A stretch of 64,000 nucleotides of DNA from Terrimicrobiaceae bacterium (GTDB taxonomy: Bacteria; Verrucomicrobiota; Verrucomicrobiia; Chthoniobacterales; Terrimicrobiaceae): NCBI GenBank assembly GCA_018402345.1, contig JAGYIV010000016.1, positions 186,001 through 250,000 on the forward strand, written 5' to 3'. Below the pieces are notes generated by a model. It ran no database searches. It was not told where the DNA came from and worked only from the letters and a program-made list of their open reading frames with translations. A program made the translations under genes and the position numbers. The first letter of the stretch is position 1. Each line of letters begins with the position of its first letter. Positions 51,034 through 58,857 of the stretch are shown piece by piece.

Positions 51034-51768
51034 TTAGTTCGGGATGTAGGGAACCTCCCCGAGGCGTTTAGGCACGAGGCGCTTTTTGTTTTTCAGGACT
51101 CCTTTTTTGTGGAGGTGCTCTGAAATGGTGGCGGTGATTTCGCGCGAGGTGCGTGTGGCATCGAACGAGACGCCGCTACGCGCGCCGTCGAGGACATTGA
51201 AAAGCGATGTGAGAGCCATGGGGCCGGTGAAGGGAGCCATAGCCACGCCGCCGATGCCTTGTGAAATATTCGAGCCGCCTGTGGTTTCGAAGCGGAGCAC
51301 GGGGGTGGAGGATTCGCCCGAGAGATCGTAAACGGAAACGAGGGTTTCCATTTTGCTGGCACCCGCCCCGAGTCCGACGGTGCTGCGCAGGAGGCGGCTG
51401 CCCTGTTGAACTGTGAGGAATTTGCCCGAGACGAGCAGAAAGTCGCCCCGAGGCAGCGCATCGGTGCTCGTCAGGATGCGGGCAGGGGCGATGTGTTTGC
51501 CAAGGCGCTCGGCGAGTTCCGAGCTGAGGTAGGATTGAAGGTCGGTTTTGAACTGCTTCAGTTCCTCTCCTTCGCGGTCCACACGGAGGGCTTCATCCGG
51601 CAGAAGGAACGGGACGATAAGAATCTCTTTCGGAGGATTGAGCGGGGATATGGTGTTAAACCGCCGGAGGTTGTCCACGCTGACCGATGCGCACGAGGTT
51701 GCCAGCAGGGCGAGGCATAGGCAGACAGGTTTGTATGCCCCTGACACAAGGCGGGAGAGGGAAGGCAT
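51034..51768 (-). CDS. DUF4410-like lipoprotein
   Basis: The 244-residue protein begins with a lipoprotein signal (PVCLCLALLATSCASVSVDN, Cys in ATSCAS). The rest resembles DUF4410 proteins: EILIVPFLLPDEAL, a charged helix YLSSELAERLGKHI, then GDFLLVSGKFLTVQQGSRLL and a Gly-rich strand pair. These are outer-membrane-associated lipoproteins of unknown function, about this size. It is the last gene of the long minus-strand run, 11 bases after the polyprenyl synthase gene. Confidence 0.7.
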   Translation of the reverse strand: MPSLSRLVSGAYKPVCLCLALLATSCASVSVDNLRRFNTISPLNPPKEILIVPFLLPDEALRVDREGEELKQFKTDLQSYLSSELAERLGKHIAPARILTSTDALPRGDFLLVSGKFLTVQQGSRLLRSTVGLGAGASKMETLVSVYDLSGESSTPVLRFETTGGSNISQGIGGVAMAPFTGPMALTSLFNVLDGARSGVSFDATRTSREITATISEHLHKKGVLKNKKRLVPKRLGEVPYIPN

Positions 51769-52802: not shown

Positions 52803-53615
52803 CTAAATGGAATCGGATTTTGCGGCGAGAATCCTGCGGAGGACGAAAAACGGCAGGGCGAGAGCGACGGCTGTGGCGAGGGCGAGGAGGGGATTGGGAA
52901 CAACGCGACGGCGGTCTTGTGCCACGGCGAGGAGGCCCGCCTTAACGGCTTCGGCGGCCGAGACGGTGAATGCAGGGGGTGGTCGGAAGTGGTGTTCCTT
53001 GTCCTCTGCTCCGGCGCGCGAGGCTGTTTCGAAAAACTCGGTGGGCACCGGGCCCGGGCAGAGTGCGGTGACGGTGATGCCTCTTGGGCGGAGTTCGATA
53101 CCGAGGGCTTCTGAGAAGCTGGTGACGTAGGCTTTGGTGGCCGCGTAGACAGCCATGTGGGGGATGGGAAAAAAGCCCGCCACGCTGCTGACATTGAGGA
53201 TGGCAGCGCGGCCATTCACGAGCATGCGGTCGACGAGCGCGTGGGTGAGGTGTGTCAGGGCGTGGATGTTTACATCGAGCATCGCTTGGATGCGGTTCCA
53301 GTCGCCCGAGGCGAACTCGCCGTGGTCGCCGAGGCCCGCGTTGTTCACGAGAAAGTCGACGTGGATTTGTTCCGAAGCGAGCCAATCGACAAGGGCCGAA
53401 CGGCGGTCGTGGCAGGCGAGGTCGGTGGCGAAGACCCTTATATCGAGGGGTGGGTGGAGATGACGAAGGGTCGAGGCGAGTTCCTCCAGGCGGTCGTTGC
53501 GGCGCGCGACAAGGACAATGCGGGAGGCGTGCGGGGCGAGTTGGCGCGCGAATTCGCTGCCGAGGCCCGAGGAGGCCCCTGTGACAAGTGCTGTGCAACC
53601 TTCAAAAAATCTCAT
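52803..53615 (-). CDS. Short-chain dehydrogenase/reductase with C-terminal membrane segment
   Basis: The 270-residue protein is a classical SDR: cofactor motif VTGASSGLGSEFARQL followed by VARRN (an Arg there favours NADPH), then NNAGLGDHG. The catalytic Ser, Tyr and Lys lie in NVSSVAGFF and AVYAATKAYV. The last 30 residues form a hydrophobic helix (PLLALATAVALALPFFVLRR), so the enzyme may be membrane-attached, as in lipid- or polyprenol-acting members. It is located between the transglutaminases and the polyprenyl synthase; the substrate is unknown. Confidence 0.88.
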   Translation of the reverse strand: MRFFEGCTALVTGASSGLGSEFARQLAPHASRIVLVARRNDRLEELASTLRHLHPPLDIRVFATDLACHDRRSALVDWLASEQIHVDFLVNNAGLGDHGEFASGDWNRIQAMLDVNIHALTHLTHALVDRMLVNGRAAILNVSSVAGFFPIPHMAVYAATKAYVTSFSEALGIELRPRGITVTALCPGPVPTEFFETASRAGAEDKEHHFRPPPAFTVSAAEAVKAGLLAVAQDRRRVVPNPLLALATAVALALPFFVLRRILAAKSDSI

Positions 53616-53664: not shown

Positions 53665-54513
53665 TCAGTCGACTTTTTCCACGCTCACCACGGACTTCAT
53701 GCGGCTTTGAACCTGCGCGTTCGAGTAGTAGGCACCGGAGACGGGAGCGACGTCCGAGTGGCGGCGGCCGACGGCGGTGGCGACAAAGTGGTGGTCGGTC
53801 AGCACGCCGTTGGTGGGATCCATGCCGAACCAGCCGGCGCCAGGGAGGCAGGCCTCGACCCAGAGGTGCATGGAGCTGACGGAGCGTTTGTCGGCATCGG
53901 ATTTGTCTCCCTCCCAGACGAAACCGCTAGCCAGGCGGGCGGCGACCCCGTTTTGGCGGAGCGCCTCGGTGAGCAGCGCCGCCATGTCGCGGCAGGATCC
54001 GGCAGACTTGTCGAGCGTCTCGCGGGGGGTGAGGGGTTGGCCCTCGTGGCGGAGTTCGTAGGCGATGTTTTCGTGGATCCAGTGGTTGAAGTTCACGAGT
54101 GTCTCCACGGTTGGGCGCGATGCTGCCGGAGCAAGGGGTTGGGGCAGATCGGACCAGTCGACCGGCGCAAGGTAGGGGGCGAGCAATTCCGACTCCTCGG
54201 CGCGGTATTGCGGGGGGATGTTCAGGCAGTTGGAGTCCAACAGGAAGTGGAAGGGATTTTTCTCCCGCACGTCGATGGTCATTTCGAGGTGGAAGGGAAG
54301 CGTCGCCGAGGCGTCGGGGTAGAAGCAGTAGGCGATGATGTTGTCGAACAGGTCCTGGCGGTATTGGATATCGGCTCCCAGGGCCGTGGAAAACGAGACG
54401 CTTTCGACTTTCGCGAACAGATCGGTGCGCGGGAACACCCTGACGTGGTGCGGAGAGAAGGAAACGGATTCCGCGTAGTTGTAGGTGGTGGACTTGGTGA
54501 TTTTCAGTTTCAT
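53665..54513 (-). CDS. Transglutaminase-like protein 2 of the ATP-grasp/alpha-E module
   Basis: The 282-residue protein has a beta-rich N-terminal transglutaminase-associated domain (YNYAESVSFSPHHVRVFPRT) and a papain-like core with a complete triad: Cys in SAGSCRDMAALLTEALRQNG, His in SSMHLWVEACLPGAGW, and Asp in GMDPTNG. It lacks a signal peptide. In the context of a neighbouring ATP-grasp/alpha-E protein, such enzymes are predicted to transfer or cleave small peptide tags. Its ATG overlaps the stop of the other transglutaminase gene by 4 bases. Confidence 0.9.
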   Translation of the reverse strand: MKLKITKSTTYNYAESVSFSPHHVRVFPRTDLFAKVESVSFSTALGADIQYRQDLFDNIIAYCFYPDASATLPFHLEMTIDVREKNPFHFLLDSNCLNIPPQYRAEESELLAPYLAPVDWSDLPQPLAPAASRPTVETLVNFNHWIHENIAYELRHEGQPLTPRETLDKSAGSCRDMAALLTEALRQNGVAARLASGFVWEGDKSDADKRSVSSMHLWVEACLPGAGWFGMDPTNGVLTDHHFVATAVGRRHSDVAPVSGAYYSNAQVQSRMKSVVSVEKVD

Positions 54514-55394
54514 GGCTTTTTCTGGATGCGGCGCATGGTCACATGGGCTTTCATGATTTGCGAGGCTGAACCTTTGAACGTGCCGCGCACGGGGGCCGCG
54601 TCAAGGGAGTCTCGACCCACCGAGACAGCGATATGCTGCTCCCCGCACCACTGGTTGTTGGTGGGGTCGAGGGCAACCCAATCCATGCCGGGGACGAGGG
54701 CCTCGATCCAGGCGTGGGTGGAGAGAGCGCCGACGAGTCTGCGCGAGGGTGTGTGTTCCTTTTCAAGTGGTTCGGATTCGATATAGCCGCAGACATAGCG
54801 GCAGGGGAGTCCCGCGGAGCGGAGCACGGAGAGCATGATGTGGGCGAAGTCCTGGCATACGCCCTCGCGGGTTTTCCACACGGTGGCCAGCGGGGTTTCG
54901 TTGTCCGTGGCGCCCGAGCGGTATTTGAACTCGCTGTGGATGCGGCTGTTCAAGCGTTCCAGGCAATCGCCGAGGGGATCGTTTTCGCGCACGAGGCTTT
55001 GGGCCCATGCGTCGGCGGCACCGCCCAGCGGAACGGACTGTGTGGGCTGGATATAATCGAATACGGTTGTGCGCGCCGAGCGGAGAATCTGTCTGGCCTC
55101 GGCCACGGTGAGGGCCAACGCACCCGCAGGAAGCGGCGCCCGCGATGTGCGCACGGTGAGATGGTTTGAAACCCGCATGTGCTGGTGGCGGAGAGTCATG
55201 GAATACACGGTGGTCATGTTGCCGAAGTAGTCGACGTAGTCCGAAACGGCGGCCGCCGGCGGGGTGAACTCGATGCGGTGGATCAGGATTTCTTGGCCCG
55301 GGCGCGTGGGCGGTGTGAGTCGGACCTCCAGATAGGCTTCCATGGCGGGATCCGAATACCTGTAGCTGGTGATGTGGGAGACCTCGAAAAGCAT
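54510..55394 (-). CDS. Transglutaminase-like protein 1 of the ATP-grasp/alpha-E module
   Basis: From ATG 55394 the protein has 294 residues. It has the bacterial transglutaminase N-domain (MLFEVSHITSYRYSDPAMEA) and the catalytic core with Cys in REGVCQDFAHIMLSVLRSAG, His in STHAWIEALVPGMDW and Asp in ALDPTNN. It belongs to the same family as its downstream neighbour, but the sequences differ clearly, so they are not a recent duplication. The upstream frame extension lacks similarity. It begins 2 bases after the ATP-grasp/alpha-E gene, so the two are co-translated. Confidence 0.92.
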   Translation of the reverse strand: MLFEVSHITSYRYSDPAMEAYLEVRLTPPTRPGQEILIHRIEFTPPAAAVSDYVDYFGNMTTVYSMTLRHQHMRVSNHLTVRTSRAPLPAGALALTVAEARQILRSARTTVFDYIQPTQSVPLGGAADAWAQSLVRENDPLGDCLERLNSRIHSEFKYRSGATDNETPLATVWKTREGVCQDFAHIMLSVLRSAGLPCRYVCGYIESEPLEKEHTPSRRLVGALSTHAWIEALVPGMDWVALDPTNNQWCGEQHIAVSVGRDSLDAAPVRGTFKGSASQIMKAHVTMRRIQKKP

Positions 55395-55396
55395 GG

Positions 55397-57916
55397 TCAG
55401 TTCGGGAAGAGTGGCCGGGTTTCGTGGTGCATCAACACTTGATGGTTCAGAAAACTGTCGCAAATCACCGTGTGGAGGGCCAGCAAGCGGTCGAGAAGGT
55501 GCTCGGAATGGATTTGGAGGTCTGATTTTCCGGAGGAGGCTGCCGTGCTTTCGCGCAGGAGGTGGCTCCAATCAGTGGAAAGAATCGCCTGGATCAGGTG
55601 CTCCATCTCCGCAAGGGCGCGCTCGGTGGGGGGGGAGAGGCTGTTTTCGTTCTCGCGGACGAGTGCGGCGCAGCCATTGAGGCAATGGAGCACCGAGCGG
55701 GGAGCGACCGGGTTTTTCCACAAGAGGTCGAGCATGGGCTCGGGTTCGATGCGCATCTGGTAAACGCGGCGGTAGACATCCCTGCAATTCAGAAGGCGGA
55801 GAAACGCCGAGAGTCTTATCTCGAGGGCGTGGGTCGGGCGGTTTTGTGCGTTGGATTGGAGGAGTGTGCTGGTGATCGAGGAGGCGGCGTTCGCAGTGAT
55901 CGCTCCCCGCTCGATGAATTGTCCGATCCTGCAGAAGTTCCATCCGTCGTCCGAGAGCATGCTGCGTTCGGCGGTGCCGAAGAATTGCGGGATCATCTCG
56001 CGAGCGAGGCGGCAGAGCGAGCGGCTGGAGGCCGCGAGGACATCCGCCGGCGCGGAGGGATCGAATTTCGCCTCTTCGAATTGTTCGCGCAGGTTGCTGA
56101 GCACGCCCCAGGCATCGATGCTTAAGGTTTCGACGACGGACTCGGCATTGCCCACGGCGCGGAGGATCGTGCTCACGACGGAGCCCGGTTCGGCGGTGTC
56201 GAGGGTGAGGCGGTGGCGGCCCTCAGGGCTCGAAATGGTGCGGCGCGAGGAGACGGCGGCGCTTTCCAGCATGGGGAGGATTTTGTTCCAGACCGGGCGG
56301 TAGTTCATGCGTTCGGTCGGGTTGAGTTCCTCGAGTTCGAGGGATTCGATGACGCCGACCATGCCCGCGAGATCGTAGGCGCGCTCGAGGTAGCGTCCGA
56401 TCCAGTAGAATGCCTCGGCGACGCGGCTGGTGACGCCGTGGGAGGGGATTTGAAATTCCGTTTGGGGTGTGGCGTCCCATTCCTCGGCTTGTTCGTGGAG
56501 GTCGACCTGAACCCAGGTGTCCTTGCCCCCGCCCCCGAGTTCCGAGGCGGTGAATCCGGATTCCGCGGTGGCGACGCGGGTGAGCGCGCCCGGGCAGATC
56601 GAGACGCTGTCGGCGTCGTTGCGGATTGCGAAGAGGATGTGGTCCTGGTGGCGTCTGTGGCGTTCGCCTTTTTGGAACGAGACGGTTGTGGCGTCGCAGT
56701 ATCGGGGCTGGGCGACGTATTGCGCGGGGTTTTCGAGGATGGTCGAGCGTGCTGCCGCGAGCGATTCTTCGCAGGGGGTCGATCTGTCGCCACCGGAGAG
56801 GATGCGTTCGCCGTAGAGGGGGCGGATGGTGAAGTCGGAGAGGTTCGCCAGCACGTGTTCGCGTTGATCGATGTCGCCCAGCCAGAAGGTCTCGAGTGTG
56901 GGAAGAAGGGGATTTTGGCCGAGGTAGTAGCGGATAATGCGGGAGGCGTGGGGAAGGAGGGCGCGGTCGTCGGAGAGTTGGGCACCGATGGCATTGACGA
57001 CCGACACGTTTTTTTTGCGGATGCAGTGGACGAGTCCCGGAACGCCCAGAACCGAATCGCGCTGGAAGACGAGGGGGTCGAGCCACTGGTCCGAGACGCG
57101 CGAGTAGATGACATCGACCTTGTTGAGGCCGCGGACGGTTTTGAGGTAGACCTCATCGTTCATGACCAGGAGGTCGCCGCCTTGGACGAGGGGGATGCCC
57201 ATTCTTCGGCTCAGGAAGCCGTGTTCGGAGTAGGCTGGGCTGAGGGGGCCGGGGGTGAGGAGCACGACGAGGGGGTCGTTTTCGGAGGAGTGGTTCCTGA
57301 GCATTTCCAAGATGTCCGTCGGAACATCCGAGATCGAGTGGATGCCCGTTTCTTGGAAGGACTGGGGGATGACGCGCGTCAGGACGCGGCGGTTTTGGAT
57401 CATGTAAGACATGCCCGAGGCATGGCTCATGTAGTGGTGCTTGACGGCGAGGGTGCCGTCGGGCAAGCGGCATGCGGCGACGCCGCTGAGGTGGAGGAAC
57501 GAGCCGCCCGGCAGAGGAAGTCCGTGGGCCGGGCGTTGGAAAAAGCGGCTTCCGAGCACGGTGGCGACGGGAATGACTCCGTCGCGGAGAATTTGTTTTT
57601 CGGAGTAGATGTCGCGAAGGAGAAGTTCGAACGCGTGGATGCGTTGGCGGATGCCCTCCGCGAGGGGATTCCAGTCACCCGGGGTGAAAATTTGGGGGAG
57701 GAGGTCGCAGAACCATGGGCGTTTTCCCCATGGGCGGTCTCGGTCGACGTCGAAGGAGACACCCATTTCCCGCATGGCGGCCTCGAGTTGGTGGTTGATC
57801 GACTGGAGTTGGGCGCGGGTGGATTCGCGGAGGCGCTCGAAGAGGTTGCGGTAGACCTCGCGGGGTTCGCCACCGGGGGTGAGGACTTCATCGAAGGCGG
57901 TTGGCGGGTGCTTCAT
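55397..57916 (-). CDS. Circularly permuted ATP-grasp / alpha-E fusion protein
   Basis: The 839-residue protein starts at ATG 57916, overlapping the ribF stop (ATGA). Residues about 1-480 are a circularly permuted ATP-grasp ligase domain (DVDRDRPWGKRPWFCDLLPQ near the start, DVIYSRVSDQWLDPL and QPRYCDATTVSFQKGERHRR further on). Residues about 497-839 are the all-helical alpha-E domain, which opens SRVAEAFYWIGRYLERAYDL. In many bacteria these are two genes; here they are one chain. ATP-grasp ligases of this type are predicted to make amide bonds, perhaps building short peptides, with transglutaminases as partners. No substrate is known from the sequence. Confidence 0.92.
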   Translation of the reverse strand: MKHPPTAFDEVLTPGGEPREVYRNLFERLRESTRAQLQSINHQLEAAMREMGVSFDVDRDRPWGKRPWFCDLLPQIFTPGDWNPLAEGIRQRIHAFELLLRDIYSEKQILRDGVIPVATVLGSRFFQRPAHGLPLPGGSFLHLSGVAACRLPDGTLAVKHHYMSHASGMSYMIQNRRVLTRVIPQSFQETGIHSISDVPTDILEMLRNHSSENDPLVVLLTPGPLSPAYSEHGFLSRRMGIPLVQGGDLLVMNDEVYLKTVRGLNKVDVIYSRVSDQWLDPLVFQRDSVLGVPGLVHCIRKKNVSVVNAIGAQLSDDRALLPHASRIIRYYLGQNPLLPTLETFWLGDIDQREHVLANLSDFTIRPLYGERILSGGDRSTPCEESLAAARSTILENPAQYVAQPRYCDATTVSFQKGERHRRHQDHILFAIRNDADSVSICPGALTRVATAESGFTASELGGGGKDTWVQVDLHEQAEEWDATPQTEFQIPSHGVTSRVAEAFYWIGRYLERAYDLAGMVGVIESLELEELNPTERMNYRPVWNKILPMLESAAVSSRRTISSPEGRHRLTLDTAEPGSVVSTILRAVGNAESVVETLSIDAWGVLSNLREQFEEAKFDPSAPADVLAASSRSLCRLAREMIPQFFGTAERSMLSDDGWNFCRIGQFIERGAITANAASSITSTLLQSNAQNRPTHALEIRLSAFLRLLNCRDVYRRVYQMRIEPEPMLDLLWKNPVAPRSVLHCLNGCAALVRENENSLSPPTERALAEMEHLIQAILSTDWSHLLRESTAASSGKSDLQIHSEHLLDRLLALHTVICDSFLNHQVLMHHETRPLFPN

Positions 57917-58857
57917 CGGTTGCGCGACTGCCCTTCGAGCCAGTGCCGTGCCTCGCCGCAATCGAGCGCGATCTGTGCCTTGAGGTCCCCGATTCCATCG
58001 AAGCGGCGCTCCGCGCGCAAGCGGTGGAGAAAGGAAATGTCGAGTTCCGCCCCGTAGAGGTCGCCCTCGAAGTCGAACAGGTGAGCCTCCAGCACGCGGG
58101 TGGAGGCGGAAGCGAGGGTCGGGCGCACGCCAATGTTCGCGACGCCGTAAACGAGGCTGGATCCATGGCGCGCCTCAATGGCGTAGACGCCGTTCGCCGG
58201 GTATTGGCGTTCGTCGGTGGCGATATTGGCTGTCGGAAAGCCGATGGAGGAGCCAAGTTTTTGGCCACTGATGACGGTGCCCGAGACGAGGAATGGTCGT
58301 CCCAGGTAGCGGTTGGCGGTTTCCATGTCGCCTTCGGAGAGTGCTTGCCGGATGAGTGTGCTGCTGACGGTGCGGTTGTCGATGCGGACGGCGGGAACCT
58401 CGCTGGTGAAAAAGCCCGCTTTCATTCCCAGGGTGCGAAGGAGGTCCGGATCGCCCTTGCGGTTTTTGCCGAAGAGCCAGCCCTCGCCGATGCAAATGCC
58501 AACGAGGTTGGCGGAAGCGTCGCAGAGGGCGGCGATGAAGTCCTCCGGTTCGACATGGGCGAAGGCGCGATCGAAGGTGACGACCAGCGCGTGGCGGATG
58601 CCGGTTTCGGCGATGAGGCGGAGCTTGAGGTCCTGCGGGGTGAGAAGGGGGACGGGGTTCTCCGGGCGGAGGACGGTCGCGGGATGGGGGTCGAAGGTGA
58701 GCACCACGGGTTCGGCATCGAGTCGCCGCGAAGTTTCGATCGCGGCATCGAGCACTGCGCGGTGGCCGAGATGGACGCCATCGAACACGCCCGCCGCGAG
58801 CACGAAGGGCGATGGAATCCGCGCCAGTTCGCCGATGGAGCGGAGGATATCCATCAC
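57913..58857 (-). CDS. ribF: Bifunctional riboflavin kinase / FAD synthetase
   Basis: RibF makes FMN and then FAD from riboflavin. The 314-residue protein has an N-terminal nucleotidyltransferase domain (GVFDGVHLGHRAVLDAA with the HxGH motif, VVTFDRAFAHVEPEDFI, ICIGEGWLFGKNRKGD). The C-terminal riboflavin kinase domain reads GQKLGSSIGFPTANI, with PTAN binding ATP/Mg. It overlaps truB upstream by 4 bases and the ATP-grasp gene downstream by 4. Confidence 0.96.
   Translation of the reverse strand: MMDILRSIGELARIPSPFVLAAGVFDGVHLGHRAVLDAAIETSRRLDAEPVVLTFDPHPATVLRPENPVPLLTPQDLKLRLIAETGIRHALVVTFDRAFAHVEPEDFIAALCDASANLVGICIGEGWLFGKNRKGDPDLLRTLGMKAGFFTSEVPAVRIDNRTVSSTLIRQALSEGDMETANRYLGRPFLVSGTVISGQKLGSSIGFPTANIATDERQYPANGVYAIEARHGSSLVYGVANIGVRPTLASASTRVLEAHLFDFEGDLYGAELDISFLHRLRAERRFDGIGDLKAQIALDCGEARHWLEGQSRNR

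Follow-up and report, generated by a model that had tools for sequence, protein, structure and literature searches.

A maintained candidate pseudo-ligase fused to alpha-E is encoded with two transglutaminases in a Terrimicrobiaceae bacterium

INTRODUCTION

Can three adjoining genes that resemble a peptide-synthesis system make and attach a peptide on their own? The question is raised by a 64,000-nucleotide stretch (here called the window) of the genome of a Terrimicrobiaceae bacterium of the phylum Verrucomicrobiota (GenBank assembly GCA_018402345.1, contig JAGYIV010000016.1, positions 186,001 to 250,000 of the forward strand). In the window, an 839-residue protein that joins a circularly permuted ATP-grasp (CP-ATP-grasp) ligase domain to an alpha-E domain (FUS) is encoded next to two transglutaminase-like enzymes (TGases), TG1 and TG2. 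An initial annotation, made from the letters of the window, proposed that this set makes and attaches small peptides. Later papers (PMC5666114, PMC6376114) credit Iyer et al. 2009 with the prediction of peptide systems of alpha-E, CP-ATP-grasp, TGase, and Anbu proteins. Here we ask which parts of such a system the window encodes, and which are found elsewhere in the genome or not at all.

RESULTS

The ligase half of FUS is, judging from alignment, a pseudo-ligase: the metal-ligand positions hold other residues, the lysine for ATP has been replaced, and no glycine loop is left. An E-x-N metal motif and a lysine/glycine loop are typical of CP-ATP-grasp enzymes such as eukaryotic glutathione synthetase. 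Among approximately 70 aligned stand-alone ligases, the motifs D-x12-E-x-N (which, from general knowledge of ATP-grasp enzymes, we take to be metal binding), VVK, (E)SGGYGM, and GRHxDLRP are near-invariant; the E is present in 70/72, the N in 69/72, the K in 72/72, and the loop glycines in 69/72, a tally made before two misfiled fusions were removed. The corresponding residues of FUS are A147, H160, Y162, R365, G369, R371, I372, S374, and I427. Loss of ATP-binding residues, which the initial annotation had itself named as evidence that would count against its reading, is therefore seen in the sequence, at all three metal-ligand positions, the lysine, and the glycine loop. FUS is not alone in this: the full catalytic set occurs in none of 66 fused paralogues from Verrucomicrobiota, Planctomycetota, and Pseudomonadota, and neither the Asn nor a full glycine loop is found in any of them. 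The lost metal and loop positions scatter across the fused class and form no new consensus.

If FUS were nevertheless an active peptide ligase, the cassette alone could make, attach, and remove a peptide tag. Its Pfam matches lie far above cut-off (CP_ATPgrasp_2, E=6e-111; CP_ATPgrasp_1, E=5e-92; both within residues 74-449), and its predicted model (mean predicted local distance difference test [pLDDT] score, 84.5; predicted template modeling score, 0.83) has the circularly permuted ATP-grasp fold. The model resembles the stand-alone ligase of Methylobacillus flagellatus (PDB 3n6x; Z of 44.9, residues 5-471, 443 residues aligned, root mean square deviation of 2.8) and, with Z of about 20-25, glutathione and glutathionylspermidine synthetases. 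However, the alignment indicates that 3n6x keeps the E-x-N motif and the lysine/glycine loop that FUS lacks; glutathione synthetases keep them as well. The changes at A147, H160, Y162, R365, and the glycine loop, at sites near-invariant in stand-alone ligases, together with the absence from the genome of DUF2126, a putative amidoligase discussed below, make an active FUS very unlikely, and they speak against the proposal that the set makes its peptide alone.

Catalytic degeneration has not been accompanied by general decay. FUS agrees with the stand-alone ligases at 74/119 ligase-invariant columns. In one closely related pair of loci (L041/L081), the nonsynonymous rate (dN) is 0.044 and the synonymous rate (dS) 0.543 for the ligase half (dN/dS of about 0.08), and 0.044 and 0.742 for the alpha-E half (about 0.06); the ratio is near 0.1 for FUS, TG1, and TG2. 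Because the low dN/dS indicates purifying selection, these columns are kept, and the predicted fold is confident, FUS is, as far as sequence and model allow, a maintained pseudoenzyme and not a decaying gene. In a tree from a quick search, a branch with 99% support (Shimodaira-Hasegawa-like approximate likelihood ratio test [SH-aLRT]) parts the stand-alone ligases and two intact recent fusions from the degenerate fusions. The two intact-motif fusions (L106, Mycobacterium bohemicum; L134, a Granulosicoccaceae metagenome-assembled genome [MAG]) nest among the stand-alone ligases and thus appear to be later, independent events; such repeated fusion suggests that ligase and alpha-E proteins act as a complex. 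We found no paper calling the fused protein inactive, although an earlier mention in Iyer et al. 2009 is possible. A separate family of divergent fusions (f10; L049, L050, L052, L055, L057, L064, L073, and L074) has lost the KD-pair lysine as well and has no adjoining TGase.

The alpha-E half is readily recognized (Pfam, E=1e-47) and keeps both ER motifs (R508-E511-R512 and E669-R670). The fixed Asp and Arg of stand-alone alpha-E proteins are A672 and N676 in FUS and are replaced throughout the fused class. Searched alone with Foldseek, the alpha-E model had no PDB match at E<=0.001; a likeness to helical membrane proteins (VIA-align Z of about 10) is usual for helical models, and we claim no kinship from it. 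At one locus of Chthoniobacter flavus Ellin428 (L087), the FUS frame is disrupted near the end of alpha-E, and no TGase lies within 6 kb.

The two TGases look catalytically intact. Both consist of Bact_transglu_N and Transglut_core domains, and the Cys-His-Asp triads seen in the initial annotation recur in virtually every one of 117 aligned relatives. TG1 (motif GVCQDFAH) and TG2 (motif GSCRD) belong to two subfamilies split by a branch with 100% SH-aLRT support, likewise from a quick search; TG2 and its kin fall on the same side as the TGase half of 1120-residue TGase-DUF2126 proteins. Two Bact_transglu_N proteins are encoded in 15/16 genomes of the genus, including three in which TG1 is unlinked from the cassette, and the remaining genome (86% complete) encodes a single one. 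Because the subfamilies are well separated and both proteins are so widely retained, distinct roles for TG1 and TG2 are plausible; to this extent, the earlier idea that two active-looking TGases suggest two steps is reasonable, and the example it gave, transfer and removal, is a further supposition. A third TGase of the genome (contig C4) was set aside; it matches Transglut_core only weakly, has no Bact_transglu_N domain, and lies beside what is, judged from its sequence, a sugar-nucleotide gene. In a Chthoniobacter MAG (L086, 8669-11389), a gene for a 906-residue protein that resembles an M1 aminopeptidase in sequence lies between FUS and TG1.

A ligase with the full motif is encoded elsewhere in the same genome. 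This stand-alone CP-ATP-grasp protein (contig C2, 489 residues) has an alpha-E gene adjoining and no TGase adjoining; a squalene/phytoene-synthase-like gene also adjoins the pair (L007; G000:C2:965138-967545). Stand-alone ligases occur in 101/387 genomes of the phylum and fusions in at least 64/387, so the fusion, at first described as unusual, is common. All 64 genomes with a fusion also have a stand-alone ligase, and none has a fusion only; these are raw counts that ignore phylogeny, and the fusion count is a lower bound. Bact_transglu_N proteins occur in 101/101 ligase genomes versus only 4 genomes without the ligase. Within the genus, fusion, ligase, and alpha-E are retained together in 16/16 genomes. 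No PF00227 match, which would indicate a proteasome-type or Anbu gene, was found in the genome of the window, which is 96.5% complete. CP-ATP-grasp and alpha-E genes were also seen on a Klebsiella pneumoniae plasmid (NZ_CP084831.1), with a further match in NZ_CP079635.1.

DUF2126 was likewise missing from this genome in searches with PF09899 and with a profile of 12 relatives. Elsewhere, a DUF2126 gene adjoins TG2 at 17 loci with the FUS-TG1-TG2 set (Pfam was run on four), and at one locus (L054) ligase, alpha-E, fusion, TG1, TG2, and DUF2126 all lie in a single run. Within the genus, DUF2126 was not found in 14/16 genomes; the other two (G455 and G485) have it on a contig other than that of FUS, with neither FUS nor a TGase adjoining (L169 and L170). 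Since many members of the family and order have DUF2126, and FUS-TG1-TG2 adjoins it at 4/4 family-level loci examined, the distribution among genomes points to a loss of DUF2126 from the cassette within this genus as the likeliest history. Our literature search found no paper treating DUF2126 together with a transglutaminase. These losses could mean that the whole cassette is on its way out in this lineage, as would the unlinking of TG1 in three genomes and the disrupted alpha-E end and missing TGase of C. flavus. We regard this as highly improbable, because no member of the genus has lost the fusion, its location is unchanged at each locus inspected, and FUS, TG1, and TG2 all have dN/dS near 0.1.

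The features of the locus are listed in Table 1. The coordinates, the 2-base gap between FUS and TG1, and the 4-base overlap of TG1 and TG2 given in the initial annotation are exact, and Pfam supports the 839-residue fusion. The FUS-TG1-TG2 order in the window is that of the cassette relatives, and since order and domains recur across order and class, the arrangement is not due to chance. At every inspected locus of the genus, the order ribF-FUS-(TG1)-TG2-SDR (SDR, short-chain dehydrogenase) is kept. NCBIfam gave no match to FUS, TG1, or TG2. The nearest named relatives are in Verrucomicrobiota (Spartobacteria and other MAGs, 65-69% identity; Chthoniobacter, approximately 50%). Window positions 51034-51768 encode a DUF4410-domain protein, downstream of a polyprenyl synthetase gene.

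TABLE 1 Positions of genes, domains, and predicted functional residues in the window
Feature	Position	Strand	Basis
FUS, CP-ATP-grasp/alpha-E fusion, 839 residues, predicted pseudo-ligase	55397..57916	-	Pfam and predicted fold
TG1, transglutaminase-like enzyme, 294 residues	54510..55394	-	Pfam, tree, aligned triad
TG2, transglutaminase-like enzyme, 282 residues	53665..54513	-	Pfam, tree, aligned triad
ATGA shared by TG1 stop and TG2 start (4-base overlap)	54510..54513	-	
ATGA shared by ribF stop and FUS start (4-base overlap)	57913..57916	-	
ribF, upstream neighbor, retained genus-wide	57913..58857	-	
SDR, downstream neighbor, retained genus-wide; functional link conjectural	52803..53615	-	
Degenerate CP-ATP-grasp domain, FUS residues 74-449	56570..57697	-	Pfam CP_ATPgrasp_2
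A147, at first acidic metal residue (D158 of stand-alone ligase)	57476..57478	-	Alignment
H160-H161-Y162, at E-x-N metal motif (E171/N173 of stand-alone ligase)	57431..57439	-	Alignment
R365, at ATP lysine (K378 of stand-alone ligase)	56822..56824	-	Alignment
Residues 369-374, expected ESGGYG glycine loop absent	56795..56812	-	Alignment
Alpha-E domain, FUS residues 496-822	55451..56431	-	Pfam and all-helical model (mean pLDDT, 90.9)
Alpha-E motif 1, RYLER (R508-R512)	56381..56395	-	Alignment
Alpha-E motif 2, ER (E669-R670)	55907..55912	-	Alignment
TG1 C180	54855..54857	-	Aligned predicted catalytic triad
TG1 H227	54714-54716	-	Aligned predicted catalytic triad
TG1 D243	54666-54668	-	Aligned predicted catalytic triad
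TG2 C174	53992..53994	-	Aligned predicted catalytic triad
TG2 H216	53866-53868	-	Aligned predicted catalytic triad
TG2 D232	53818-53820	-	Aligned predicted catalytic triad

Since the FUS start codon overlaps the ribF stop codon, FUS-TG1-TG2 forms the tail of a nusA-infB-rbfA-nrnA-truB-ribF run, and this coupling suggests constitutive expression. The point matters for the possibility that TG1 and TG2 are plain peptidases or amidases of a system that scavenges peptide nitrogen, with FUS only positioning the substrate. A link to nitrogen is suggested elsewhere, because a DUF404/407-DUF403-TGase cluster of Burkholderia is NtrC dependent (PMC5491218) and proteasome-like and CP-ATP-grasp genes of Pseudomonas putida are expressed more highly on nitrate than on ammonium (PMC8050072); marine metagenomes associate such genes with urea genes (PMC3597751). 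(A mention of DUF403 in a HEPN paper proved to be a prefix match to DUF4037.) Constitutive expression does not fit nitrogen scavenging well, and an ever-present ATP-using ligase would be odd in a purely degradative system; we consider this explanation rather unlikely.

DISCUSSION

Our results indicate that the cassette is related to the predicted alpha-E/CP-ATP-grasp/TGase systems, with which it shares domain families, gene clustering, and a predicted role in peptide synthesis or modification; the kinship claimed at the outset is thus upheld. By sequence, it lacks two of their defining features, the catalytic ligase residues and Anbu. In contrast to those systems, its ligase is fused to alpha-E and it has two TGases. 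Cassettes of Burkholderiales and Planctomycetes (L121, L122, L132, L135, and L142) have TG1 and a fused CP-ATP-grasp/alpha-E protein without the same catalytic residues, as in the window, but their TG2-like domain forms one 1120-residue protein with DUF2126. The immediate relatives are FUS-TG1-TG2-DUF2126 cassettes of Verrucomicrobiota, in the same gene order (L042, L047, L053/L101 of Cerasicoccus arenae, and L082), in which DUF2126 follows TG2. The Rlo system of Pseudomonas aeruginosa also pairs ATP-grasp and transglutaminase-like proteins with one inactive partner (PMC12239564); there, however, it is a membrane transglutaminase that is inactive, a retropepsin belongs to the system, and the likeness is one of analogy only.

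We therefore come, with a little more belief than doubt, to the view that a peptide-modification system is here divided between two loci, with the cassette as its non-ATP half and not a self-contained tagging machine. The stand-alone ligase would use ATP to make an amide-linked product. FUS, imitating the ligase/alpha-E complex in one chain, would be a noncatalytic adaptor that binds this product, or the active ligase, and delivers it to TG1 and TG2. Through cysteine-acyl intermediates, these enzymes might pass the peptide on to an acceptor, cut it off, or divide these two tasks between them, and in this genus the system would run mostly without DUF2126. An ATP-using ligase is supported by in vitro work on the Anbu operon of Yersinia, whose ATP-grasp protein released phosphate from ATP (PMC6376114).

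Several observations weigh against a two-locus system with a noncatalytic FUS. Pull-downs with the Yersinia Anbu-operon proteins gave no specific interactions (PMC6376114). Common descent, and not function, may explain part of the constant pairing of fusion and ligase. Some fused clades retain the E and/or the K, and FUS itself retains R273, D280, Q403, R422, H423, D425, R447, K465, and D466 in the active-site region; because such residues persist, FUS may bind ATP or have an altered chemistry. A FUS that binds a nucleotide or another ligand at a different metal site and catalyzes a different reaction would be consistent with the conservation of polar residues near the old site (R447, K465, D466, and D280) and with K259, L264, and P293, which are fixed differently from the ligases. 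Against it stands the lack of any new consensus where the metal ligands and the loop used to be, and we think it unlikely, if worth keeping in mind. Going beyond the two-locus system, we can speculate on a tagging pathway run by a pseudoenzyme, in which the dead ligase-alpha-E protein is an obligatory adaptor that passes the product of a separate active ligase to the two TGases, one TGase attaches the tag and the other removes it, mostly without DUF2126; so specific a scheme is doubtful, and we offer it tentatively.

What makes this locus interesting is its pseudo-ligase and the loss of DUF2126; the fusion and a layout with two TGases are both common. The alpha-E, CP-ATP-grasp, and TGase families are widespread. 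This analysis identifies a species with a reduced system, in which no Anbu was found, DUF2126 is absent, and exactly two such TGases are present. It also cautions that proteins annotated as "circularly permuted ATP-grasp" are a mixture of probably active and probably dead ones. As the conserved pseudo-ligase always occurs with a full-motif ligase, the stand-alone gene would be the one to assay, and the fusion would be an adaptor.

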